Source: Candidatus Rokuibacteriota bacterium (GTDB lineage: Bacteria; Methylomirabilota; Methylomirabilia; Rokubacteriales; CSP1-6). From it: a stretch of DNA of 36,106 nucleotides. Position 1 is the first letter of the stretch. Every line of letters starts with the position of its first letter. The DNA lies in contig QHSL01000016.1 in the NCBI GenBank assembly GCA_003220435.1, positions 1 to 36,106 on the forward strand, read 5' to 3'. The position numbers and the translations under genes are program-made. The notes under the pieces are model-generated. The model saw nothing but the letters and a program-made list of their open reading frames with translations, had not been told where the DNA came from and did no database searches. Below are positions 1,355 to 23,713 of the stretch, piece after piece.

Positions 1355-2356
1355 ATGTTTCCGAACCTCCGGCTGATCGACCGACGCTCGTTACTCATCA
1401 ACCTCGTCGCCACCTTGCTACCGGCTTCGGCGCACGCGCAGAAGCCATCGGCACCGCCCCGGATCGGCTGGCTGTCGGCAGGATCGGAGCCCGACCCATT
1501 CCTGGAGGCGTTTCGCGAAGGTCTGCGGAAGCTGGGCTACGTCGAGGGGCAGAACCTCCAACTCGATGTTCGACACGCGCACGGGAATCTGGAGACGCTA
1601 CTCGGCGCGGCGGCGGAGTTGGCGCAGGCCAGGGTCGCCCTGATCGTCGCCAGTCTCACGGCGGTCCGAGCGGCGCGGACGATCAAGGACATTCCCGTTC
1701 TCTACGTCATCAGTGGCGATCCTATCGAGGCTGGCCTCGCGCAGAGTCTGCCGCGGCCCGGCCGCAACCTCACCGGCAGCACATTCCTTTCGCTCGAGAT
1801 CGCGGGCAAGCGCGTGGAGCTGCTGAAGGAAGCCCTGCCACGTCTACGCTCGCTCGCGGCGTTGTCGAATACCGACCATCCCGGGGAGAAGTCGGAGCTG
1901 CACGCCACCGAGGCCGCCGCTCAGAGGCTCGGGATCAAGCTCATTTACGTTGCCTTCTCCCAGTCCCCCTTCGGAACGAGCCCGGAGCTCGACAAAGCGC
2001 TCGAGACTGTTGGGCGGGCGCGCCCGGACGCGATGATCGTTTTCCCTGAAGGCGCGACCATGGCGAACCGCGTCAGTCTCGCCAACTTCGCCACCGCGCA
2101 CCGCCTGCCGTCGATGTTCGGCTGGGCCGAGTATGTCGCGGCGGGGGGACTGATGAGCTACGGAGCCAGTCAGCGCGACGCGCACGCGCGGCTGGCCGGC
2201 TACGCCGACAAAATTCTCAAGGGCGCCAAACCCGGGGACCTGCCGGTCGAACAGCCGACTAAGTTTGAGCTCGTCATCAACCTCAAGACGGCCAGAGCGC
2301 TCAGTCTGCCGATCCCGCAATTACTGCTGCTGCGGGCCGATCAGGTCATCGAGTGA
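1355..2356 (+). CDS. ABC transporter substrate-binding protein (PF04392 / YtrP-like), orphan
   Basis: This is a 333-residue periplasmic binding protein. A signal sequence (RRSLLINLVATLLPASAHAQ) is followed by the family hallmark PPRIGWLSAGSEPDPFLEAF. Later family blocks include EGLRKLGYVEGQNL, VLYVISGDPIEAGLAQSL, RPGRNLTGSTFLSLEIAGKR and, near the C-terminus, PADLPVEQ-like GDLPVEQPTKFELVINLKTA. I chose ATG 1355 because AGGAG lies just upstream; a TTG at 1319 would add 12 residues with no signal-peptide logic. No permease or ATPase gene adjoins it. The ligand is unknown; characterised relatives are linked to tryptophan or aromatic amino-acid uptake, but this branch is hugely expanded in soil lineages. 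A second paralogue lies at 13745-14734. Confidence 0.88.
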   Translation: MFPNLRLIDRRSLLINLVATLLPASAHAQKPSAPPRIGWLSAGSEPDPFLEAFREGLRKLGYVEGQNLQLDVRHAHGNLETLLGAAAELAQARVALIVASLTAVRAARTIKDIPVLYVISGDPIEAGLAQSLPRPGRNLTGSTFLSLEIAGKRVELLKEALPRLRSLAALSNTDHPGEKSELHATEAAAQRLGIKLIYVAFSQSPFGTSPELDKALETVGRARPDAMIVFPEGATMANRVSLANFATAHRLPSMFGWAEYVAAGGLMSYGASQRDAHARLAGYADKILKGAKPGDLPVEQPTKFELVINLKTARALSLPIPQLLLLRADQVIE

Positions 2357-2383
2357 GCGAAGACACTATGCCCGAGGCTCCGC

Positions 2384-2602
2384 CTACTTGAATCTGTAGG
2401 TGATCCGACCTCGGGTCAGGTCGTAGGGAGACAGCTCCATCGTGACCTTGTCGCCCGGCAGGATCCGGATGTGGTTCATCCGCATCTTGCCCGACACATG
2501 GGCCAGCACCTTGTGACCGTTGTCCATCTGTACGCGAAACATCGCGTTGGGCAGTGGCTCGACCACCTTGCCCTCCACCTCGATCGCCTCTTCCTTGCTC
2601 AT
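2384..2602 (-). CDS. infA: Translation initiation factor IF-1
   Basis: This 72-residue protein has the full length and sequence pattern of IF-1, a single OB-fold factor that binds the 30S A site with IF-2 and IF-3. The N-terminus reads [19 protein letters not shown], followed by [20 protein letters not shown], and it ends in the usual [15 protein letters not shown]. It stands alone rather than inside a ribosomal-protein operon, pointing away from the MFS gene. The solitary position also occurs in many Proteobacteria. There is no strong Shine-Dalgarno, only a weak purine stretch upstream of ATG 2602. Confidence 0.97.
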
Positions 2603-2771
2603 GGTGTGCCGTTCTCACTTTCTTTCAGCGCCTGAATCGACGCCGGTGCCCGTGCGGCCGGGAAGATCAAGGGGATGGGCCCCGAGGATAACTCTCGCGA
2701 CCTCACTCGCCCCTACGGACGGGAGGAGATACCGCCTGACAGCGTATCACGCATTCCGCTGAGATTTGCGG

Positions 2772-2784
2772 GGTGTTGAACACC
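2772..2784. promoter_or_regulatory. 13-bp palindrome, candidate operator upstream of the MFS gene
   Basis: GGTGTT-G-AACACC is a perfect inverted repeat with 6-bp arms, centred about 60 bp upstream of the MFS start. A TTGACA hexamer begins 19 bp downstream (2803-2808) and could be the -35 element, though no good -10 follows it. The position would suit a repressor of an efflux pump, but no regulator gene is adjacent. Confidence 0.35.
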
Positions 2785-2838
2785 TCCGAGTTGCGAGCTG
2801 GTTTGACACTCTGCGAGTCGCCACCGTAGTCTCATGCG

Positions 2839-4149
2839 ATGTCCTTCCTGAACGCTGTCACAGACGTCTTTCGACCGCGATCGGCGGCCGGCGACCGGGA
2901 GACTGGTCCCCGGGTGATGGGAGCAGAGCAGGAGCCCAGCACCCGAGAAAAGCAGGCGATGCTCCACTTGAGCAACGTCTCGCATGCCGTCAATCACTTC
3001 CAGAACCAGATGATGACCATGCTGTATCCCTACATCATGGCCGACCTCGGCATGAGCTATACCGCCGTGGGCGTCCTCTCGGCCATCTGCTCGGTGCTCA
3101 GCAGCATTTGCCAGGGTGCTTGCGGATTCTTAACGCCCTTCTTTTCCCGCTGTAAGCTCCTGGGTTTTGGCAATCTCGGCATCGCGCTCGGGACGTTGAT
3201 GAGCGGTCTGGCCCCTTCGTACCCCACGCTGATCATGGCCCGTGGAGTCGCGTCCATCGGATCCAGCGCCCAGCATCCGGTCGGCTATAGCATCCTCTCG
3301 AGCTACTTCCCGAACAACCGCGGCGCCGTGATGGCGCTGAACACCAGTGTCTCCAACGTCGGGACCCTGGTGGCGACGCCACTCGCGACCGCGCTCCTGC
3401 TGGTCATGGGCTGGCGCCAGATCTTCTTCGTCGTCACGATCGCCAGCGTCGTCATGGGCCTGGTCTACTTCTTCTTCCGTGATTACGAGATGTCGAATCG
3501 ATCGGGCTCTCGACGGTCTCGACTCGTCCAGGGGTTCGGAAGCTATCGGCGGGTGCTGAAGAACCGCAAAATGCTGCTCATCGCCGGCGTGTTCATGGTC
3601 GGCGGCGCCGGCCGTGACGGCGGGGTGAACCAGATCTATTTTGCGCCTCACCTCGCGAACGACTTCGGCTATTCGAAGCTGACCATCGGGATTCTCATTA
3701 CGGCGATCAGTGTCGGGAGCATCCTGGGGCCAATCTTCTTCGGCTGGCTCTCCGATAAGTTCAGCCGCGTCCGCATGCTGCAGGTTTCGCTGGCGCTCTC
3801 CTGCGTGGGGACCCTGTGGGTCGCCCATCTTGGGCCCGGCGAAGCGATGCTGTTCATCAGCCTGCTGCTCTACAGCGCGTTTACCTCCTCGCGAGGGACT
3901 CAGACGCAGGCCATCGTCGCCGATGCCGCCTCCGACGAAGACCGAGACGCGGCGTTCAGCCTGTACTTTCTGCTGGGCTTCCTCTCCCAGCCTTTCTGGG
4001 TGCTGGTCACGGGGTTCCTCATGGACAACGCTGGATTCGCGACCGCGCTGACCCTCCTGAGCGTGACGTACGTTGTCGGGATCTTCGTCCTGTCCTTCAT
4101 GAAGGATGAGCCGCGCCCGAGACTGGCGGACCCGGCGTCACTCAGATAA
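2839..4149 (+). CDS. Major facilitator superfamily transporter, fosmidomycin-resistance-like
   Basis: This is a 436-residue integral membrane protein with about 12 hydrophobic segments. The first helix region (HFQNQMMTMLYPYIMADLGM) and the loop around QHPVGYSILSSYFPNNRGAV resemble Fsr-type MFS exporters, where the His-Pro and Arg-Gly motifs are conserved. A cytoplasmic loop rich in Ser/Arg (around residues 215-235) separates the two six-helix halves. GWLSDKFSRVRM is the second-half copy of the MFS A-motif (GxLxDrxGrr). The start is uncertain: ATG 2839 has no good Shine-Dalgarno, and ATG 2917 or 2959 would remove a hydrophilic N-terminal extension without affecting the helices. The substrate cannot be told from sequence. 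The gene ends 5 bp before a convergent gene. Confidence 0.87.
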   Translation: MSFLNAVTDVFRPRSAAGDRETGPRVMGAEQEPSTREKQAMLHLSNVSHAVNHFQNQMMTMLYPYIMADLGMSYTAVGVLSAICSVLSSICQGACGFLTPFFSRCKLLGFGNLGIALGTLMSGLAPSYPTLIMARGVASIGSSAQHPVGYSILSSYFPNNRGAVMALNTSVSNVGTLVATPLATALLLVMGWRQIFFVVTIASVVMGLVYFFFRDYEMSNRSGSRRSRLVQGFGSYRRVLKNRKMLLIAGVFMVGGAGRDGGVNQIYFAPHLANDFGYSKLTIGILITAISVGSILGPIFFGWLSDKFSRVRMLQVSLALSCVGTLWVAHLGPGEAMLFISLLLYSAFTSSRGTQTQAIVADAASDEDRDAAFSLYFLLGFLSQPFWVLVTGFLMDNAGFATALTLLSVTYVVGIFVLSFMKDEPRPRLADPASLR

Positions 4150-9004: not shown

Positions 9005-10486
9005 TCACCGCCCTTCGGGCGTGCTGGTGACCTCGGCCATCGCCCGCGCCCGCACCCTCGTGAGGAGCGACTTCACCCGATCGATCGGGACCGCGAACGT
9101 CAACCGCTGCTGCCCGCCGATGGAGTGCGCGCCGTCCGTGAGGATGCCGACCGCTTCGCCGAGGTGATTGAGCAGCGGCCCACCGACGCCGGCGGGCTTT
9201 GGCGTCAGATCGACGGCGAGGTTTCCGCCCGTGCCGGCGCCCGTCGCGAGCACTGTGGCCGCGAGGGGTGCCCGGTCGGAGCCGATACCGTTGCCCGCTG
9301 CCAGGACGCGGTCTCCTATCGCAAGAGCTCCGGAGTCGCCGAGCGCGATGATCGGCAGTCCTCGATTCGCGAGCCTCAGGACTGCAATGTCGTTCAGCCG
9401 GTCTCGGGCCACGACGCTCGCCCCGACCGTCTGGCCATCGGACAGCGCTACCTGGAGCGAGGTCGCTTCGCCGAGACGCTGCTGGCTCGTGAGGACGTGC
9501 CCCAGCTCATCGATGATGAATCCCCTGCTCCCTGGTGAGCGGACATCCTGCGACGGGCGAATATCGACGACCGCGCGCATCAGGACCGAGAGGGCGGCTC
9601 TGTCCCAGCGCGGAGATTCCGCGGACCACACCGGCAGATCCTGCGGCGGTTGCGACGCCCGGGCCAATCGGCGGGGACTGAGGAGCAAAGTGTCCACGGT
9701 GGCGCCGCCGCGCGGAAGCGCTCCCGGAACGGGCCGGACCATGTCATCTGGCGCCCCCCACGGCTTCACGAGGGGTTGGGCGTCCTGACGGTGCCGAGCG
9801 GGTGGCGCGATGGAGGACGCGTTTGGAGCTCTTTCTGGTGGCGTCGGTGCCGGTGCGCGCGGTACCGATGCGCTCAGGAGCGGGGCCCTCGATCCGGGGG
9901 CGCTCGATGCCGGGGCGCTTACTATCGCTGCGTCCTCCGCGGTGGGTTTCGCGGAGACAATCGCGGCGCTCTGGGGCGCGCGGCTCCGGATGGTCGATGA
10001 AACCTTGAGAAGGATCGGGATCGCCAGGATCACGCCGGCGGCGATGGCGACTGGTAGGACGGCCGGCTTGATGAAGCTGCGGACTGAGCGCCCATCGATG
10101 CGAGAAGCTTGAGCACGAGACGACGCGAAGGGCGTCAGCGGCGGCGCCGAGCGTTTGCCAGCGACGCGTTCGGCGACCCGCGCGCAAGTGTCTGCGAATT
10201 CCGGCAACACGGCCCTCGTGGGCGCAGAACACAGGGCCCGGAGAGGCGCCGAGCACGCGGCGTCGTGCAGCCAGTTCTGACCACAGTCCGGGCAGAAGTG
10301 GAAGTGCGCTCCTCGTCGGGCCCCCGGGGTGTCGGGCGCGTTGGCGAGCGGGAAGCACCAGGGGCAGCAGGCGACGGGTCCTTCCGCACACTGCCCCTCA
10401 TGATTCCAGTCGCCTTCGCAGATGTTGCAATAGTGCGAATGAGGACCTGGCGTGATCTGCGCAGGTTCGGCGTCCTGCTCGCTCAT
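9005..10486 (-). CDS. Membrane-anchored HtrA-fold pseudoprotease with N-terminal duplicated zinc-binding motif
   Basis: This encodes 493 residues. The N-terminus holds two copies of H-x-H-[YF]-C-x2-C-x3-W-x-H-x3-C (residues 16-33 and 61-78), plus C41-x2-C44. A single membrane helix follows at about 140-161, then a long Pro/Ala/Ser linker to about residue 290. The C-terminal domain is trypsin/HtrA-like: GFIIDELGHVLTSQQRL replaces the TNAHVV histidine, NDIAVLRL keeps the aspartate, and PAGVGGPLLN has Val where GNSGGPLLN has the catalytic Ser. It should therefore be proteolytically inactive. The N-terminus would be cytoplasmic and the protease fold outside. ATG 10486 overlaps the TGA of the upstream TPR gene (TGATG), so the two are translationally coupled. 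Confidence 0.8.
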   Translation of the reverse strand: MSEQDAEPAQITPGPHSHYCNICEGDWNHEGQCAEGPVACCPWCFPLANAPDTPGARRGAHFHFCPDCGQNWLHDAACSAPLRALCSAPTRAVLPEFADTCARVAERVAGKRSAPPLTPFASSRAQASRIDGRSVRSFIKPAVLPVAIAAGVILAIPILLKVSSTIRSRAPQSAAIVSAKPTAEDAAIVSAPASSAPGSRAPLLSASVPRAPAPTPPERAPNASSIAPPARHRQDAQPLVKPWGAPDDMVRPVPGALPRGGATVDTLLLSPRRLARASQPPQDLPVWSAESPRWDRAALSVLMRAVVDIRPSQDVRSPGSRGFIIDELGHVLTSQQRLGEATSLQVALSDGQTVGASVVARDRLNDIAVLRLANRGLPIIALGDSGALAIGDRVLAAGNGIGSDRAPLAATVLATGAGTGGNLAVDLTPKPAGVGGPLLNHLGEAVGILTDGAHSIGGQQRLTFAVPIDRVKSLLTRVRARAMAEVTSTPEGR

Positions 10487-12495
10487 CAGCCGCTCGCTCG
10501 ACGGAGGCCTTCGATTGCGGCCGTGTTACCGGGCCCCAGCTGTAGCGCTCGTTGAAAAGCCGCTCGCGCCTCCGTCTTCTGGCCGAGCTGGATGTAACAC
10601 CATCCGATGCCCGCCTGAAGCTGATGGGAGTCCGGCGCAGAAAGGCTGGCGCGAATGAACGTCGCCAGCGCTTCGCGGTAGCGCGCCAGGTGATAGAGGC
10701 TCCACGCCACCTTTGCCCTCAGCGCCGCCGCCTCGGTCGGCTCCTCGCCGATGAGTGGTCGCGTCCTGAGGAGGGCCTTCTCGAGCGTGGGTAGAGCGAC
10801 ATCGTACTGGCGCAGCTCGAAGAGCGCCGATCCCATGCCGTTCAGCGCATCGGCATAATCCGGATTTCTGTCCAGCGCCGGCCGGAATGCGGCGATCGCC
10901 AGGTGGTACCGCTGGAGTTGAAAGCGACTCCATCCGAGGCCGTCGTACAGCCCCTCCCACGTGGGCTCCCGACGGAGCGCGCTCTTGAACGTGACGATCG
11001 CGCCCGCGAAATCACCGAGGAAGTACTCGGACCAGGCGAGGAGGGCTCTCGCCTGGTCATGGTCCGGATACAGAACCGTGGTCTCCCGCAGGAGGTCGCG
11101 CGCCTCCTGATACCTTCGCGCCTCGAGAAGCGCCTTGCCTCGATTGAAGCTGGTCTCCGCGCGCAGGCTCCGCCGGAGGTTCTGGAAGAAGCCTGCAGGG
11201 ATCGCCGAAAAGGAAGGCGGGGTCGACGCGAGCGAGACCGGTCGGTCGCCCGCCTCCTCTACAGCCTCCCAGGCGCGCTCGGCAGCGTCGCGCGCACGGA
11301 CCGCCTCGCGTCGCGCGAGGGCGTCGGCATTCGGCATCGGAGTGGCCGCGATGCGCGCCGCCTCCGCGGCAGCCCGCTCAGCCTCGCGCGCAGCATCTGC
11401 TGCCGCCCGGGCGGAGTCCATCGCAGCATCCGCAACCTCGCTGGCGACCTCGAACTGCCGACTGGACCCGCCCGCAGCCGCCTGCCGCTCGCCGATTCGT
11501 TGGGCTGCATCGGCTGCGACCGCGGCGAGACGCGCGGCTTCCGCCGCGGCCCGCGCCGCGATCAGGGCCGCGCGCTCTGTGAACGATGTGACCTGGTCGC
11601 CACCCGACTCGCTCCCGACGAGGCCCGCCGGCGACGGATCGGGACCGCCGCCCACCCGCGCCTTGAACTGTCTGGCGAGCTCCGAGCGTGCGATGCTGCT
11701 CATCCTGAACGCGCTGGCATTGAGGCCGCGCGGGCTGCCGACTCCGCTGGCTGACACGCTCCCGTTGTTGCCGACGCCAACGGTGCCGCTGACCCCTCCG
11801 TCTCCGGCGGTCGCGCTGACCCCTGTGCTGACGCCGGTGCTGCTGCTGCTGGCCGTGCCACTGACTCCGACGCTCCCGGCCGTCGCACCTACGCTGGCGC
11901 TGGTTCCGGAGCTGCTAACGCCAGCGGTGCCGCTGACCCCGACGCTGCCGGTCGAGGCGCCCACGCTAGCGCTGGCGCCACTGCTGCTGGCCCCGACCCC
12001 TGCACTGATCCCAACGCCACCGGTGCTAGCGCTCGTCCCGGCGCTGGCGCCGCTGGTGCCGACGCTCGCCGAGCCGCTGACTCCGGCGCCACCGCCGCTG
12101 GCACTCGCGCCGGTACTAGCGCCGCTGGTGCCGACGCTCGCCGAGCCGCTGACTCCAGCGCCACCACCACTGGCGCTGGCCCCGGTGCTAGCACCACTGG
12201 TGCCGACGCCCGCGGAGCCGCTGACCCCAGCCCCCCCAGCACTGGCGCTGCCACTGGTGCTTGCCCCGCTGGTGCCGACGCCTGCTGCGCCGCTAACTCC
12301 AGCGCTTCCGGCGCTGGCTCCAACGCCGGCAGTGGCCCCACTGCTACCCGACCCCGCAGAGGCGCCTACCCCTACGCCCGCGGCACTGGCGCTGACACCG
12401 GTCCCCGCGGAGGCGCTTCCAAGGATGGGCGAAGAGATGAGAAGCAGAGATAGACCCAAAGCGCATGAACGCCATGAACGGATATGGCGAGTCAT
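10486..12495 (-). CDS. Secreted repeat-rich TPR protein
   Basis: From ATG 12495 (GAGGAG 7 nt upstream) this encodes 669 residues. They are a signal peptide (CALGLSLLLISSPILGSASA), a Gly/Ser/Ala/Val/Thr low-complexity region (about 31-253) with a 24-residue repeat, an Ala-rich helical segment (about 300-415, many AAxAAR heptad-like repeats), and five or more TPR units (about 445-669, e.g. ARALLAWSEYFLGDFAGAI and GIGWCYIQLGQKTEARAAFQ). TPRs mediate protein contacts; the repeat arm probably forms an extended periplasmic or surface stalk. The frame remains open upstream to 13413 only as antisense of the amidohydrolase gene. It overlaps the following pseudo-HtrA gene. No enzymatic motif is seen. 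Confidence 0.78.
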   Translation of the reverse strand: MTRHIRSWRSCALGLSLLLISSPILGSASAGTGVSASAAGVGVGASAGSGSSGATAGVGASAGSAGVSGAAGVGTSGASTSGSASAGGAGVSGSAGVGTSGASTGASASGGGAGVSGSASVGTSGASTGASASGGGAGVSGSASVGTSGASAGTSASTGGVGISAGVGASSSGASASVGASTGSVGVSGTAGVSSSGTSASVGATAGSVGVSGTASSSSTGVSTGVSATAGDGGVSGTVGVGNNGSVSASGVGSPRGLNASAFRMSSIARSELARQFKARVGGGPDPSPAGLVGSESGGDQVTSFTERAALIAARAAAEAARLAAVAADAAQRIGERQAAAGGSSRQFEVASEVADAAMDSARAAADAAREAERAAAEAARIAATPMPNADALARREAVRARDAAERAWEAVEEAGDRPVSLASTPPSFSAIPAGFFQNLRRSLRAETSFNRGKALLEARRYQEARDLLRETTVLYPDHDQARALLAWSEYFLGDFAGAIVTFKSALRREPTWEGLYDGLGWSRFQLQRYHLAIAAFRPALDRNPDYADALNGMGSALFELRQYDVALPTLEKALLRTRPLIGEEPTEAAALRAKVAWSLYHLARYREALATFIRASLSAPDSHQLQAGIGWCYIQLGQKTEARAAFQRALQLGPGNTAAIEGLRRASG
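12050..12337 (-). repeat. 72-bp in-frame tandem repeat encoding a 24-residue Gly/Ser/Ala unit
   Basis: Four consecutive copies begin at 12050, 12122, 12194 and 12266, exactly 72 bp apart. More diverged copies continue to about 11800 and 12390. Each copy translates on the minus strand to a unit like GVSGSAGVGTSGAS + TGASASGGGA. The best copies differ at only a few bases, so recent slippage or recombination is likely and repeat number may vary between strains. Confidence 0.85.
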
Positions 12496-16958: not shown

Positions 16959-16973
16959 TGGCATAGCCATTGC
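16959..16973 (+). promoter_or_regulatory. Sigma-54 (RpoN) promoter of the minor-pilin operon
   Basis: TGGCATAGCCATTGC matches the -24/-12 consensus TGGCAC-N5-TTGC with exact spacing; only the C of the CAC and the following G are off. Transcription would start near 16985, just before the GAGGGAG ribosome-binding site of the first pilin gene. Sigma-54 control of type IV pilin genes through PilS/PilR is well established in several phyla. Confidence 0.7.
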
Positions 16974-17002
16974 GTCCAACCTGGTCGAGGGAGACACCTG
17001 CT

Positions 17003-17515
17003 ATGCGGCTGGGCGAGTCACGAGGCACGGAAACGGCGGTGTGGGGACGCATGCGGATTCAGCGCATGAACGCTCGCGGATTCTCGCTCGCGGAGCTCAT
17101 GCTGGTCGTTTCGTGCATCGGCATTCTCGCGGCGCTCGCCGCCCCGACGCTCATCAGCTACATACAGACCGCGGCCCTCCGGGCGGGCACGCGTGAGCTG
17201 GTGACGGCGATCAACCTTGGCCGACAGCTGGCGATCTCGCGTAACACGACCGTCTGCGTGCAAGTGACGGGCACGAATATCCGACTCCGCACGGGTGGCT
17301 GTGGCGGAACGATCTGGACGGGGCCTGGGACCGACGGCTCCGGCGTGATCAGGGTCTCGGATCCCGGCACGTTGCAGGTCAGCACGACGGCGAGCGTCGT
17401 GTTCACCAACCTGGGAGCGGCGAGCACCGTAGGGACCTACACGGTGACGAATCCGGTGGACAACCACACGCAGACGGTGGTCGTGGCTTCTTCGGGACGG
17501 GTGACCGTCCAGTGA
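17003..17515 (+). CDS. Type IV minor prepilin, FimT/GspH family
   Basis: This 170-residue prepilin has the peptidase cleavage motif ARG|FSLAELMLVVSCIGI, with the conserved Glu at +5 and a 20-residue hydrophobic helix. A beta-rich globular GspH/FimT domain follows (e.g. LGRQLAISRNTTVCVQV), with a probable disulfide between the Cys of TTVCVQV and TGGCGG. ATG 17003 is chosen because it sits behind GAGGGAG and downstream of the predicted sigma-54 start site; ATG 17051 would give a shorter 10-residue leader and is a fair alternative. It is the first gene of the operon and overlaps or abuts pilV. The protein primes pilus assembly in the inner membrane. Confidence 0.87.
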   Translation: MRLGESRGTETAVWGRMRIQRMNARGFSLAELMLVVSCIGILAALAAPTLISYIQTAALRAGTRELVTAINLGRQLAISRNTTVCVQVTGTNIRLRTGGCGGTIWTGPGTDGSGVIRVSDPGTLQVSTTASVVFTNLGAASTVGTYTVTNPVDNHTQTVVVASSGRVTVQ

Positions 17516-17523
17516 GGTCAACC

Positions 17524-17946
17524 ATGAAGCGGGAAGGCGGCTTCACGCTCGCAGAGGTTCTCGTCGCGACGTTCATCCTCGCGATCGGCCTTGCCGCGGT
17601 GGCCACCGGCTTCCAGTACGCGACGAGCGGAATCGAGACGGGTAAGGGCGAGACGACCGCGGCCTTTCTGACCGAGCAGAGGCTCGAGCAGCTGAAGGCC
17701 CTGGCGCTGACGGACTGGACGAATGCGGCGCTGACCGCCGGCACGACCACCGAGGCCTACGGATCCATCGCGAATGCCTCGGCGTATCGACGCGTGACCA
17801 CGATCACGGACAACCCGGGGGGGACATGCACGGTGAACTGCAAGCTGATCCAGGTGACGGTGTTCTACAAACCGCTCACCGGAAGGGGCCGGCTGGACCA
17901 GGAACGGCAGGTCGACATCATCACCATGGTCACATCGCGGTCGTGA
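17524..17946 (+). CDS. Type IV minor prepilin, PilV family
   Basis: This 140-residue prepilin has a short leader (KREGG|FTLAEVLVATFILAI) with Glu at +5, followed by the N-terminal helix and a small C-terminal domain. A close CTVNC pair may form a disulfide. ATG 17524 has GAGGT 5 nt upstream; a GTG at 17512 overlapping the previous TGA is the alternative. LTEQRLEQLKALAL is the usual PilV helix continuation. It is translated immediately after the FimT-like protein and probably forms part of the priming tip complex with PilW and PilX. Confidence 0.86.
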   Translation: MKREGGFTLAEVLVATFILAIGLAAVATGFQYATSGIETGKGETTAAFLTEQRLEQLKALALTDWTNAALTAGTTTEAYGSIANASAYRRVTTITDNPGGTCTVNCKLIQVTVFYKPLTGRGRLDQERQVDIITMVTSRS

Positions 17947-17954
17947 GGATGAGA

Positions 17955-18569
17955 ATGCTCGAGACGCTGCGGAGCGAGCGCGGCTTTTCGCTGGCTGAGC
18001 TGCTGGTCGCGTGCGTGGTCGTGGCCTTCGTGATGGCCGGCCTGTTGATCACGCTGCAGAGCGGACAAGAGTCCTATTTGCGCGGCGCGAACGAGGTCGA
18101 GGCGACGCAGAGTGTCCGGGTGGCGATCGAGAGGATGGCCCAGGAGCTCCGGGTCGCGGGCTTCTGCCCCACCTGCGGGACGCCACCCTTCGATGCGATC
18201 ACGGCGCAGAGCGCGACGGGGTTCACCATTCAGAACGACTGGGACGGCGACGGCGTCATCACGACGCCTGGCACCGTCACGGACGCCAACGGGAACGTCC
18301 GCGGCGAGCAGATCATCTACAGCTTCGCCGGCGGTGCCATCACCCGCCAGGAGACCGGGGTCGACGCGAGCGCGCTCACCCTGGCGACCGGGATCAACGC
18401 TCTGACGTTCACCTATCAGGATAGCGCGGGCGCGACGACAGGGACGGCCGCCAACATCCGTAGCGTCGTCGTCACCCTGACCACCACGCCCCAGAACCAG
18501 CCGGCTGCGACCATGCAAGGGCGGGTGCTCGTCACCATGACCGACTCCCTTCGCATGAGGAACCGGTAG
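17955..18569 (+). CDS. Type IV minor prepilin, PilW family
   Basis: This 204-residue prepilin has the leader LRSERG|FSLAELLVACVVVAF, Glu at +5 and a long helix. IERMAQELRVAGFCPTCG follows, where PilW-type proteins typically carry a Cys pair. GAGG at 17945-17948 precedes ATG 17955; ATG 17949 or GTG 17943 would extend it by a few residues. It ends with VTMTDSLRMRNR at TAG 18569. Its gene overlaps or abuts pilV and precedes the PilX-like gene by 29 bp. Confidence 0.85.
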   Translation: MLETLRSERGFSLAELLVACVVVAFVMAGLLITLQSGQESYLRGANEVEATQSVRVAIERMAQELRVAGFCPTCGTPPFDAITAQSATGFTIQNDWDGDGVITTPGTVTDANGNVRGEQIIYSFAGGAITRQETGVDASALTLATGINALTFTYQDSAGATTGTAANIRSVVVTLTTTPQNQPAATMQGRVLVTMTDSLRMRNR

Positions 18570-18598
18570 TGATTACCAGGCAGTCTGGAGGAGGATCC

Positions 18599-19942
18599 AT
18601 GAAGAAGTTACGAACGCTCGTTGACAACGAACGCGGCGTAGCGCTCGTGTTGGCGCTCACGATTCTCTTGACGCTCACGGGCCTGGTGCTGGCCTTCCTC
18701 TCGGTCAGCGCCTTCGAGCCCCAGATCTCGAAGAATCACAGCGACACCACCCGCGCCCGGTACGTGGCCGACGCCGGCATCGAGTATGCGTACGACACGC
18801 TCGCGACGAACATCCTCACGTGGGACACCTACCTGGTCGGGGCGACCTGCACGACCGGCGCCGTGCTCGGCACGGCCAACTCCACGCTGCCTGGGCTGAC
18901 GGCCGCGGAGGGGACCTTCACGGTTCGGGTCCGCAACGACTGTAACGCCGGCGACAACAAGTTTACGGGCGTGGCGGTCGAGGCCGGGACCAACGCGACG
19001 ACCGACACCAACAACAAGCTCATCGTCACGTCCACGGGGACTCTCAACGGCACCAGCAAGACGATCACCGTCGTCATCACGAAGACAGTCGTCCCCACGA
19101 TCAACGCGGCGCTTGCGTTCCCGGGCATTCAGGCCGACGTGAACTTCAACGGCTCGAGCTTCGTGATCGACGGGCGCGATACGCGGATGGCCGACAACGC
19201 GGGGACGCCGACGGGCACTCACAATGCCGTCTACGGCATTGCGGTCAACGGCAGTATGCCGATTCTCGAGACCCAGGTCGAGAACGCCCTCAACAACAAC
19301 CAGGGGAATGACGTCCGCGGGCGGGACGAGACCAGCTCGAGCAACCCGCCGGCCACGACCCAGGGCGCCAACGCCATTCAGTCCGACAGCACGCTGACCT
19401 CCCAGATGGTCACCGACTTTGCCGCGGTGCTCAAGCAGCACGCCGACATCATGATCAACACCAGCAGCGGCAACACGTACTCGATCCACAGCATCGGAGG
19501 CGGGACGGGGGCCCCCACCTGCTCGAGCAACTGGAGCAGCTCGACCTGCTGGGGCTCGACGACCAAGCCGAAGATCGTCTACCTCAACGGCACCCTGGAC
19601 AACCTCAACACCCAGTACCTCTCGCTCGACGTCGCGGGAACTAGCGAGGGCACGGGCATCCTCGTCATCGAGAACGGCAACGTCGACATCAACGGCAGCT
19701 TCCGCTGGAACGGTCCGATCATCTCGACCGGCAAGAACGTCGGCATCCGGTACCGGGGCGGCGGGTCCCAGGCGGTGTACGGGGCCACGATCGTCAACGA
19801 GCTGCACAACGACGGCTCCACCAATCTGGAGGGCGACATTCGAGGCAACGCGAGCCTTCTCTACAGCCGGGAGGCCCTGGACCTGGTCCAGAACCTCCTG
19901 AGCCGCCGGCTCGTGACGACGTCCAGCTGGAACGACCAGTAG
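18599..19942 (+). CDS. PilX-like pilus assembly protein, large form
   Basis: From ATG 18599 (GGAGGAGGA upstream) this encodes 447 residues. NERGVALVLALTILLTLTGL is the PilX N-terminal motif (RG|xALVxAL) with a membrane helix, and FEPQISKNHSDTTRARYVAD is the usual continuation. Beyond residue 180 a long Asn/Thr/Gly-rich region (FPGIQADVNFNGSSFVIDG, GNVDINGSFRWNGPIIS) looks like a beta-helix and makes the protein more than twice the size of Pseudomonas PilX. A GTG at 18569 would add ten residues and is less likely. It is probably the exposed tip-associated subunit. No pilY1 adhesin gene follows in the window. Confidence 0.85.
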   Translation: MKKLRTLVDNERGVALVLALTILLTLTGLVLAFLSVSAFEPQISKNHSDTTRARYVADAGIEYAYDTLATNILTWDTYLVGATCTTGAVLGTANSTLPGLTAAEGTFTVRVRNDCNAGDNKFTGVAVEAGTNATTDTNNKLIVTSTGTLNGTSKTITVVITKTVVPTINAALAFPGIQADVNFNGSSFVIDGRDTRMADNAGTPTGTHNAVYGIAVNGSMPILETQVENALNNNQGNDVRGRDETSSSNPPATTQGANAIQSDSTLTSQMVTDFAAVLKQHADIMINTSSGNTYSIHSIGGGTGAPTCSSNWSSSTCWGSTTKPKIVYLNGTLDNLNTQYLSLDVAGTSEGTGILVIENGNVDINGSFRWNGPIISTGKNVGIRYRGGGSQAVYGATIVNELHNDGSTNLEGDIRGNASLLYSREALDLVQNLLSRRLVTTSSWNDQ

Positions 19943-20694: not shown

Positions 20695-21720
20695 TCAGTC
20701 GCGCTCGGTGGCGATGACCGGCTTGTAGCCGTGGGCTTGCAGGTCGCGGAGCTTGGCAGCCGCCTCGGCGCGGTCCGTGAATGGGCCCACGCGCACCCGG
20801 AGCAGGAGCTGTCCCCGGAGGCCCGCGGGCACCTTCACCGCGTCGATCGCGAGGGGCAGGCTCTCCTCGAGGAGACGCGACGCGAGCTCGCCAGCGGCCA
20901 TGTTCGTGAAGGCGCCCATCTGGATCCAAAACGACGCAGGGGCCGACGGTACGGAGGCCTGTAGCTCGGGACCCGTGCGCAGAGCGAGATCGTTGGGGCG
21001 GGACTCGGCATCGACGGCGATACCCCGCTCGAGGGATGGAGCGGCCGCCGCCGGCTCGGGAAGCGGCGCCGGGCTTGCCTCGACGCGCGCCGCGGGAGGC
21101 TCGACGGCTACGGTCGCGACGGTCGCCGGCACCGAGACGCGCGCCTTCAGCTCGGCGATGAGCTCCGGATACGACGAGCGCCGGAGCACCCGCTGGAACT
21201 GGGCGCGGTAGTTCTGCACGAGATCGACGCCGTCGATCGAGACGTCGTAGACCATCCAGCGCTCGCCTCGGCGGATCATACGATGCTCGACCGGAATCTC
21301 GTTGCCGTCCCGACCTTCGATCGTGGTCGTGACGGTCGCCCGGTCGCCATCGATGACCTCGCGCAGATACCGGACCGCCAGCCCCGGGCGCACCGTGGCC
21401 CGCGTAGCGATCCGCGCGATGTAGGCGCTCTCGACGAACTCCTTGAAGAGCTGGACGAACTCCTCTCGCTCCGCCGGCGTCCTGGCGTCCCAGTCACGCC
21501 CGAGGACGAGCCGGGCGGCCAGCCGCGCCTCGAAGCGATCGGCGACGACCGCGCGGATCGCGGCCTGCAGCTCCTCCGGCTTCTCGCGTAACGCGGGATC
21601 GTCGAGCAGGCGGTTCACGGTCGTCACGACCGCGATGAGCGTCTCGGTCGGCGGCCCCGCCCCAGCCTCGCCGCCGAGGACGAGCACCAGCGCCAGAACG
21701 GCGGCGGGCCACCGGGCCAT
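20695..21720 (-). CDS. MlaC-like phospholipid-binding protein fused to a SPOR domain
   Basis: This encodes 341 residues: a signal peptide (WPAAVLALVLVLGGEAGAG), an MlaC/Ttg2D domain (about 25-205) and a Pro/Ala linker. The MlaC domain includes LLDDPALREKPEELQAAIRA, ARLVLGRDWDARTPAEREEF and MVYDVSIDGVDLVQNYRAQF. The linker leads to a SPOR domain (about 260-338: FWIQMGAFTNMAAGELASRL through LLLRVRVGPFTDRAEA). MlaC shuttles phospholipids between outer- and inner-membrane Mla complexes; SPOR binds denuded glycan strands of peptidoglycan. No mlaABDEF gene adjoins it in the window. The fusion would tether a lipid carrier to septal peptidoglycan, which is unusual. Confidence 0.85.
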   Translation of the reverse strand: MARWPAAVLALVLVLGGEAGAGPPTETLIAVVTTVNRLLDDPALREKPEELQAAIRAVVADRFEARLAARLVLGRDWDARTPAEREEFVQLFKEFVESAYIARIATRATVRPGLAVRYLREVIDGDRATVTTTIEGRDGNEIPVEHRMIRRGERWMVYDVSIDGVDLVQNYRAQFQRVLRRSSYPELIAELKARVSVPATVATVAVEPPAARVEASPAPLPEPAAAAPSLERGIAVDAESRPNDLALRTGPELQASVPSAPASFWIQMGAFTNMAAGELASRLLEESLPLAIDAVKVPAGLRGQLLLRVRVGPFTDRAEAAAKLRDLQAHGYKPVIATERD

Positions 21721-21783: not shown

Positions 21784-22869
21784 TCAGGGACGGTCGGGCG
21801 AGAACCCTCGATTGCTGACGATCTTGTAGTCCAGGAGCCGGATCTCGTACGTGCCCCGCACGTAGTCGCTCCCGACGCTCCAGGTCCGAAACCCCTTGGT
21901 GAGGATGGGGATGGACACCTGCTTGGCGAGCCCCGGCGGGATCACGGCGCCCTTGATGTCCCTCAGGTGGAAGTCCAGCACGTCACCGCGCGCGTTCTTG
22001 ACCACGACCAGGACGCGCACGTCGGCGATCGTGTCGTTGGTCTTGTTCTGGATCGAGGCGGTGAGCGACGCGAGGGTGCTCCCCTCGGCGAACGCGCCGA
22101 ACTCCTCGATGACGTTGTTGAAGAAGACCAGGTCCTTGCTCCGGTCGATCTCGCGCAGGTCGACGGCCGCCGGCTTCGCCGCCGCGAAGGCGACCGTCGA
22201 GGGGGGCAGCTCCCGCAGGAGGTTGATCGGGAGCGCAAAGTTCAGGTTCTGTCCTCTGGCCGACGTGGCGGTCGCGATGCCGACCACGCGCCCCTGGCCG
22301 TCGAACACGGGCCCGCCGCTGCTGCCCGGGCTGATCGGCGCGGTGATCTGTAAGAATCTCGTGTTGTTCAGCGTGCGCAGCCCGCCCACGATCCCGGTCG
22401 AGACGCTGCCCTCCAGCCCGTGCGGGTTGCCCAGGACGACGACGTCCTGGCCGACCGTCACCGCCTCCGAGTCTCCGAGCAACACCGGCGGCGTGGCCGT
22501 GAACGACGTCTGGATCGTCACCAGATCGTGCTTGCGGGAGAAGTTCACGATCTTCTGGGCCGTACCGCTCTGGCCGCGCCAGCGCAGGAGCACCTTGGCC
22601 GCGCCGCCGACGACGTGCGCGTTGGTCACCAGCACGCCGTCGCGCGTGATGAAGAACCCGCTGCCGAGCGCCAGGGGCTGGTCCTGGTCGTCGACGGCGA
22701 TCAGCGTCACGACGGATGGGAGATTCTCGCGCGCGACACGGGCGGCCGCCGACTCTTGTGCGTGGGCGGCGCGGTAAAGCCCGAGGGGGAGCAGCGCGGT
22801 GAGCGCCAGACCGGCCACGAGACCGGCGCGCGCGAGCGATGGCGGGCCGTCGACGATCGCTGCTCTCAT
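21784..22869 (-). CDS. HtrA/DegP-type trypsin-like serine protease without PDZ
   Basis: This encodes 361 residues from ATG 22869, preceded by GGGGG. A signal or anchor helix (residues 12-36) is followed by a chymotrypsin fold with a complete triad: H85 in LVTNAHVVGG, D115 in RKHDLVTIQ and S184 in PISPGSSGGPVFD. Instead of PDZ, the C-terminal ~125 residues form a beta-sandwich-like domain (LASLTASIQNKTNDTIADVR, VLVVVKNARGDVLDFHL) resembling FxLYD. It is therefore a periplasmic protease with a different substrate-recognition module, and a functional contrast to the inactive HtrA fold at 9005-10486. Longer upstream frames lack a signal peptide at the start. Confidence 0.88.
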   Translation of the reverse strand: MRAAIVDGPPSLARAGLVAGLALTALLPLGLYRAAHAQESAAARVARENLPSVVTLIAVDDQDQPLALGSGFFITRDGVLVTNAHVVGGAAKVLLRWRGQSGTAQKIVNFSRKHDLVTIQTSFTATPPVLLGDSEAVTVGQDVVVLGNPHGLEGSVSTGIVGGLRTLNNTRFLQITAPISPGSSGGPVFDGQGRVVGIATATSARGQNLNFALPINLLRELPPSTVAFAAAKPAAVDLREIDRSKDLVFFNNVIEEFGAFAEGSTLASLTASIQNKTNDTIADVRVLVVVKNARGDVLDFHLRDIKGAVIPPGLAKQVSIPILTKGFRTWSVGSDYVRGTYEIRLLDYKIVSNRGFSPDRP

Positions 22870-22922
22870 GGTTCGCCCCCTGTGGGCACTGCGCGACGTT
22901 CTTGACGGGATCGTAGCTAACC

Positions 22923-22951
22923 TTTTTACACGAGAAGGGCTGTTCTGACAA
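22923..22951 (-). promoter_or_regulatory. Sigma-70-type promoter of the protease gene
   Basis: On the minus strand TTGTCA (22951-22946) and TAAAAA (22928-22923) are separated by exactly 17 bp. This would start transcription near 22916 and leave a leader of about 47 nt before ATG 22869. The hexamers match 5/6 and 4/6 of consensus in an otherwise GC-rich region. Confidence 0.5.
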
Positions 22952-23047
22952 GGGTGTCGGTCCGTATCATTCCGGAAACTATTGTTCCTGGACGAGGGCG
23001 AGGCGTGGGCCTTGACTGGCGGCGGGCACCGCGCTATCAGGAGGGGC

Positions 23048-23713
23048 ATGAAATCCACCGGGTGCGTCTTGGGTGTGGCGGTCGCCGCCGCTCTGGTGCT
23101 CGTCGGCTGCGGAAAGCATTACTGGAACAGGCCTGGCGCGGGCGCGGAGGACTTCGCGAAGGACAGCAGCGAGTGCGCGCGGGCGAACGCCATGTACATG
23201 AGCGCGAACAAGGAATACGGGATCGTCCTCGAGGACGCGTACAAGAGCTGCCTGAAGATGCGCGGCTGGGTCCGAGCCCAGCACCACGAGCCGCCGGCCG
23301 ACTGGTTCCGGGGCATCGAGAGCGACGATCCGGTCCGGCTCGACGGGCCCACGCTGCCGCCGTCCGGGCCGCGTTCGAGCCAGGCAGCGACGCCGGCTGA
23401 CGGCGGCGAGCTGATCGGCACCTGGGCGGGGCAGCTGGAGCGGCCGATCCCTGGCGGCCGCCGGTTCTATTCGGCCGTGCTGAAGATCACCGAGGACGGC
23501 AGTCGGCTCCGCGGCGAGCTGGACGTCACCGGGATGGACCTCAAGGGGTCCGCTCCCGTCGTGAAGTCCGAGCAGACCATGGGGATGTCGGGGAGATTCG
23601 GTGGGCAGGCGCTCGCGATCTCCTTCACGCTGACGGTGAGCGGCAATAACCTCGAGGCGGCCGGGCTCGGCGCCGACAACCTGCTGTATCGCCTCGCGCT
23701 ACAGAAGCGATAG
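23048..23713 (+). CDS. Lipoprotein of unknown function
   Basis: This encodes 221 residues from ATG 23048, with GGAGGGG just upstream. The signal ends in a lipobox (AAALVLVGCGKHYW, Cys 21). The N-terminal half carries paired cysteines (SSECARANAMYM and AYKSCLKMRGW), a pattern seen in small outer-membrane lipoproteins; the second half (LIGTWAGQLERP through LYRLALQKR) looks like a beta-rich lipocalin-like or DUF domain that I do not recognise. An upstream in-frame ATG at 22982 would bury the lipobox and is rejected. It is followed 6 bp later by the dioxygenase gene. Confidence 0.78.
   Translation: MKSTGCVLGVAVAAALVLVGCGKHYWNRPGAGAEDFAKDSSECARANAMYMSANKEYGIVLEDAYKSCLKMRGWVRAQHHEPPADWFRGIESDDPVRLDGPTLPPSGPRSSQAATPADGGELIGTWAGQLERPIPGGRRFYSAVLKITEDGSRLRGELDVTGMDLKGSAPVVKSEQTMGMSGRFGGQALAISFTLTVSGNNLEAAGLGADNLLYRLALQKR

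Follow-up and report, generated by a model that had tools for sequence, protein, structure and literature searches.

The window analysed here is the stretch of 36,106 nucleotides from position 1 of contig QHSL01000016.1 of a Candidatus Rokuibacteriota bacterium (contig C34 of our genome G000, 5.4 Mb; all of the genomes compared are draft assemblies). Our subject is the gene at 9005..10486 on the minus strand, which starts with ATG and codes for a genus-specific membrane protein with a probable role in binding or as a scaffold. Its product has Cys- and His-rich repeats at one end and an HtrA-like domain at the other, and is 41-64% identical to its homologues within the genus. The parts of the gene, and the tetratricopeptide repeat (TPR) gene directly upstream, are as follows.

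9005..10486, minus strand: whole gene, an open reading frame (ORF) of 493 codons for metal-ribbon-like repeats, a transmembrane (TM) helix, a Pro-rich linker and a pseudo-HtrA domain
10253..10441, minus strand: two His/Cys repeats, residues 16-78, placed by two exact copies of the motif and by alignment with three-repeat homologues
10007..10063, minus strand: single TM helix, residues 142-160, mean hydropathy 2.69, as against 1.29 for the next best stretch
9629..10006, minus strand: Pro/Ala/Ser-rich linker, presumably periplasmic, with a conserved PGAxxR-GGAxLDT...PRR stretch in the alignment
9008..9628, minus strand: pseudo-HtrA (Trypsin_2) domain without PDZ, from Pfam, alignment to solved HtrAs and comparison of orthologues
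10486..12495, minus strand: TPR gene for an exported-type protein with Gly/Ala/Ser-rich 72-bp (24-residue) tandem repeats, then C-terminal TPRs (Pfam TPR)

The repeat module is present in eight of the nine genomes of one Rokubacteria genus, and no convincing copy was found outside it among 95 genomes of the class and phylum. The homologues fall into two groups. Group A proteins have the HtrA domain, and comprise those of the window, G049 (locus L002, a Candidatus Rokuibacteriota metagenome-assembled genome and the nearest named relative found), G050 (L020), G052 (L019, cut by the contig end), G051 (split across contigs L018 and L026, the proteins being identical over 59 shared domain residues) and G054 (L024). 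Group B proteins have the repeats, TM helix and linker but end just before the HtrA domain, and are found in G048 (L023), G050 (L022) and G053 (L021). As G050 carries both, the groups are paralogues. The ninth genome, G055, has neither the module nor the TPR gene.

Matches to the module in G057, G058 and G030 (weak), and side matches in G053 and G048 (E 1e-4 to 8e-3), were to short, interrupted or unrelated frames, and an IMG/VR match (L070) was dropped because there is a stop right where the match begins. A search of plasmids for the module gave nothing. The GTDB contigs were scanned with exact peptides of the window protein, which is a shallow search outside the phylum, and of three matches only L002 extended beyond the protease domain; more distant relatives of the module may thus exist in other phyla.

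The HtrA domain is matched by Pfam Trypsin_2 over residues 322-448 (E 1.6e-16), and among solved structures by DegP-like, MucD and DegS proteins (best E 3.5e-22). In alignment with MucD (8k2y) and HtrA (1l1j), LTSQQRL lies under LTNNHVI/LTNYHVV and PAGVGGP under PGNSGGP, so that in the window protein the catalytic His is replaced by Gln and the Ser by Val, with the Asp (DIAV) kept. This is as stated in the original prediction, made from the window alone, and the comparison with orthologues extends it, as none of the six copies seen has an intact His-Asp-Ser triad. The Ser is replaced in all five copies that have the site in an unbroken frame, by Val in the window, L002, L020 and G051 and by Ile in L019, and also in the frameshifted G054 gene (Ala). 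At the His site there is Gln in the window and L002, Arg in L020 and G054, and Lys in L019; only G051 keeps the His, and there the Asp is Gly. As to a surface di-histidine metal site on the protease domain, of the kind expected in a MamO-like pseudoprotease, the window domain has His residues at 330, 441 and 454, and only the His of DELGH is common to all unbroken copies. There is no Pfam match to PDZ and the protein ends shortly past the protease fold. The next nearest HtrA proteins in the genus genomes have no more than about 40% identity over the matched stretch.

The ratio of nonsynonymous to synonymous substitution rates (dN/dS) is well below 1 for both the module and the HtrA domain. For pairs of pseudo-HtrA domains it is 0.20-0.35, as against 0.40-0.67 for the linker, the fastest-evolving part of the gene, which together with the loss of the triad indicates a fold maintained under purifying selection without catalysis. 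These values also bear on whether the gene is simply decaying or nonfunctional. The window copy has lost one repeat and one CxxC, and the G054 gene (9973-11973 on C83) is frameshifted and lacks its 5' end, which may be decay or, in draft assemblies, assembly error. However the between-species ratios hold for both domains and the frames are open in the other genomes with the gene, and we regard decay as quite improbable.

At the N-terminal end the motif HxHxCxxCxxxWxHxxxC occurs twice, as first reported (HSHYCNICEGDWNHEGQC, residues 16-33, and HFHFCPDCGQNWLHDAAC, residues 61-78), and no other exact copy is present in any of the six frames of the window. Alignment of the homologues shows that this 18-residue motif makes up the first half of a longer repeat that closes with CxxC, and that most of the proteins have three such repeats, which in L002 are HPHRCREGHRWQH...C...CPVC, HSHYCNICEGDWDHEGRC...CCPWC and HFHFCPECTQNWQHDASC...CSGC. 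Repeats 2 and 3 clearly resemble each other (z 7.1, with none of 5000 shuffles as good) and the likeness of repeat 1 to them is weaker (z 3.4 and 2.2). In most homologues repeats 2 and 3 have two CxxC each and repeat 1 has Cx3H. Repeat 1 is absent from the window and G051 copies, and as these are sisters in the TPR protein tree (support 98/97) a single loss is sufficient. In the window copy the last repeat also has an 8-residue insertion and no closing CxxC. The duplicated motif of the window is thus the remnant of a triplicated unit. The His and Cys residues of the module are kept across both paralogous branches, which are 61-71% identical there, and dN/dS is 0.06-0.44 where it could be computed.

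Neither Pfam nor NCBIfam has a significant family match for the module, and the sub-threshold library matches are mostly to zinc ribbons or fingers. From the pattern, the likeliest reading is that each repeat is a zinc-ribbon-like knuckle pair. The CxxC...CxxC pairs are shared with zinc ribbons and rubredoxin-type knuckles, but here the first knuckle is preceded by HxH and followed by WxH, there is an extra Cys, and no family is significantly matched. The proposal of a paired metal site of no named kind therefore holds as to the absence of a name, but the motif is half of a probably zinc-ribbon-like repeat and not a special paired site. Each repeat would fold around a metal, most likely zinc, held through CxxC...CxxC, with the additional His and Cys possibly forming a second set of ligands. 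The only matches of the module among solved-structure profiles were trefoil factors (E 0.017-0.043), which we dismiss as a coincidence of Cys pattern.

The TM helix expected between the two ends is there as a single strong hydrophobic stretch. The flanking charges (KR/DE 5/1 on the N-terminal and 4/0 on the C-terminal side) lean slightly to the N-terminus being inside, and to that extent agree with the suggestion that the motifs are cytoplasmic. All 11 Cys of the window protein precede the helix, and no copy has a Cys after it.

Two other functions for the N-terminal end need consideration here. The first is a metal or redox sensor, with the repeats responding to zinc or oxidants and altering the periplasmic part. 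The 14-16 Cys of the three-repeat copies, nearly all N-terminal to the TM helix, and the CPWC within the second repeat favour it. However an entire repeat is gone from the window and G051 copies, and another CxxC from the window copy as well, in a gene that is not decayed, and no metal-transport or oxidative-stress gene is recognised beside the module gene. We consider a sensor unlikely, although it is one of the two main rivals to the interpretation given below. The second is a zinc-binding anti-sigma-like factor. HSHYCNIC can also be read as Hx3Cx2C, which is literally present in both repeats, and membrane anti-sigma factors have the same order of cytoplasmic domain, TM helix and periplasmic domain. 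The conserved Trp and the closing CxxC are not part of the zinc-binding anti-sigma motif, there is no match to zf-HC2 or any other anti-sigma family at E<=1, and a Pfam scan of 14 other ORFs of the window found no sigma factor. This we think very improbable.

The TPR gene may code for a partner. In the window, L002, L020 and L019, which are four of five group A loci, its stop codon and the start of the module gene overlap as TGATG. The TPR gene is present in seven of the nine genus genomes, the others being G055 and G054, where the broken module gene has no TPR gene upstream, and at the E-value used (1e-20) the protein is restricted to the genus among 57 genomes of the family. The TPR and module trees each separate group A from group B. 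At L021 (G053:C160) there is a local tandem duplication (1695-3638 and 3563-3961) upstream of an intact pair, containing a piece of the start of the module gene together with the final part of a second TPR gene.

Our preferred interpretation is a bitopic protein of the inner membrane that serves as a scaffold or tether together with the TPR protein, and we give this about an even chance of being correct. The repeats, inside the cell, would have a cytoplasmic protein or a nucleic acid as their ligand; the TM helix and long Pro-rich spacer would present the non-catalytic HtrA fold, most likely as a periplasmic binding domain; and the exported TPR protein would be the working partner, presumably in direct contact. 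Group B has no HtrA domain yet keeps the repeats, TM helix, linker and, for the most part, the TPR neighbour, and the core is thus repeats, TM helix and linker with the TPR protein, to which the pseudo-HtrA is an optional periplasmic addition. The variety of substitutions at the Ser site (Val, Ile, Ala) and at the His site (mostly Gln, Lys, Arg), with the fold still kept, also supports a scaffold or tether.

Some observations weigh against this. G050 has an intact group B gene beside a TPR gene cut down to its last 62 residues, and three genomes have TPR paralogues with no module gene adjacent, so the partnership is not strict. AlphaFold models of the module and of the full-length protein (predicted local distance difference test scores, pLDDT, of 53.4 and 39.3) are too poor to read; a Foldseek search with the low-confidence module model found no fold match at E<=0.001, nor any under E 2, and we draw nothing from it.

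It had also been suggested that the protein could sense an envelope ligand and signal inward. This is no more than possible, and is weakened by group B (L021, L022 and L023), which retains the other parts with no HtrA domain, and by the neighbouring genes scanned, among which no signalling partner is recognised. A broader proposal treats the metal repeats as a domain not described before and restricted to this lineage, which links the cytoplasm to the envelope pseudo-HtrA and to a translationally coupled TPR protein. Together these would form a novel scaffold or signalling system across the membrane of Rokubacteria, with the pseudoprotease as an exchangeable periplasmic part. We put this forward as a minority view only.

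The other main rival to the scaffold or tether is a regulator, in which the inactive HtrA domain would bind to an active HtrA within the cell and switch it, with the repeats serving only as an anchor or to report metal status. All nine genus genomes have several more HtrA-like proteins, many with an intact triad, and there is a precedent in MamO and MamE (PMC4794232). However a paralogous branch retains all of the other parts without the HtrA domain, and no active HtrA gene is adjacent, the apparently intact one at 21784-23058 being 11 kb away. We therefore rate this as a rather unlikely explanation.

The closest known system is MamO, a pseudoprotease of the HtrA type from magnetotactic bacteria. 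In Magnetospirillum magneticum it is needed for MamE-dependent proteolysis, and like the protein discussed here it has an HtrA/trypsin-like domain kept for non-catalytic work in a cell that also has active HtrAs (PMC4794232). The Rokubacteria protein differs in having its candidate metal sites in separate cytoplasmic repeats, and in that His and Ser are usually both replaced. MamO is the only bacterial HtrA pseudoprotease studied in depth in the literature we searched, where we met with no report of a Rokubacteria membrane protein combining a zinc ribbon with a trypsin-like domain. The present protein adds a further case, in which the evolutionary evidence indicates that the domain was retained after catalysis was lost, and in which it is joined to a Cys/His repeat that has no name and is recognised by none of the libraries. 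The HtrA-less branch is a natural control, and the gene pair provides something concrete and testable from an uncultured group.

DegS-type HtrAs, which are among the solved-structure matches, share the N-terminal TM anchor and periplasmic HtrA fold, but here there is no intact triad and no PDZ, and cytoplasmic repeats and a long Pro-rich linker are added. The GltJ/AgmX-type proteins of Myxococcus may be a further parallel, with a cytoplasmic zinc finger, a TM helix and a Pro-rich periplasmic linker. In contrast to these, no GYF or TonB-type domain is recognised here, and the pseudo-HtrA is at the end instead.

Other neighbours in the window are a luciferase-like monooxygenase, a MetE-like protein and an amidohydrolase, which suggest no pathway. 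The gene at 21784-23058 (minus strand) codes for a second HtrA/Trypsin_2 protein with an apparently intact triad (TNAHVV, SPGSSGGP); it adjoins a gene for an MlaC+SPOR protein (20695-21720), and the two are also together in G051 (L018). At 16970-19942 (plus strand) there is a pseudopilin or type IV pilin-like cluster (GspH, N-methylation motif, PilX_N-like).
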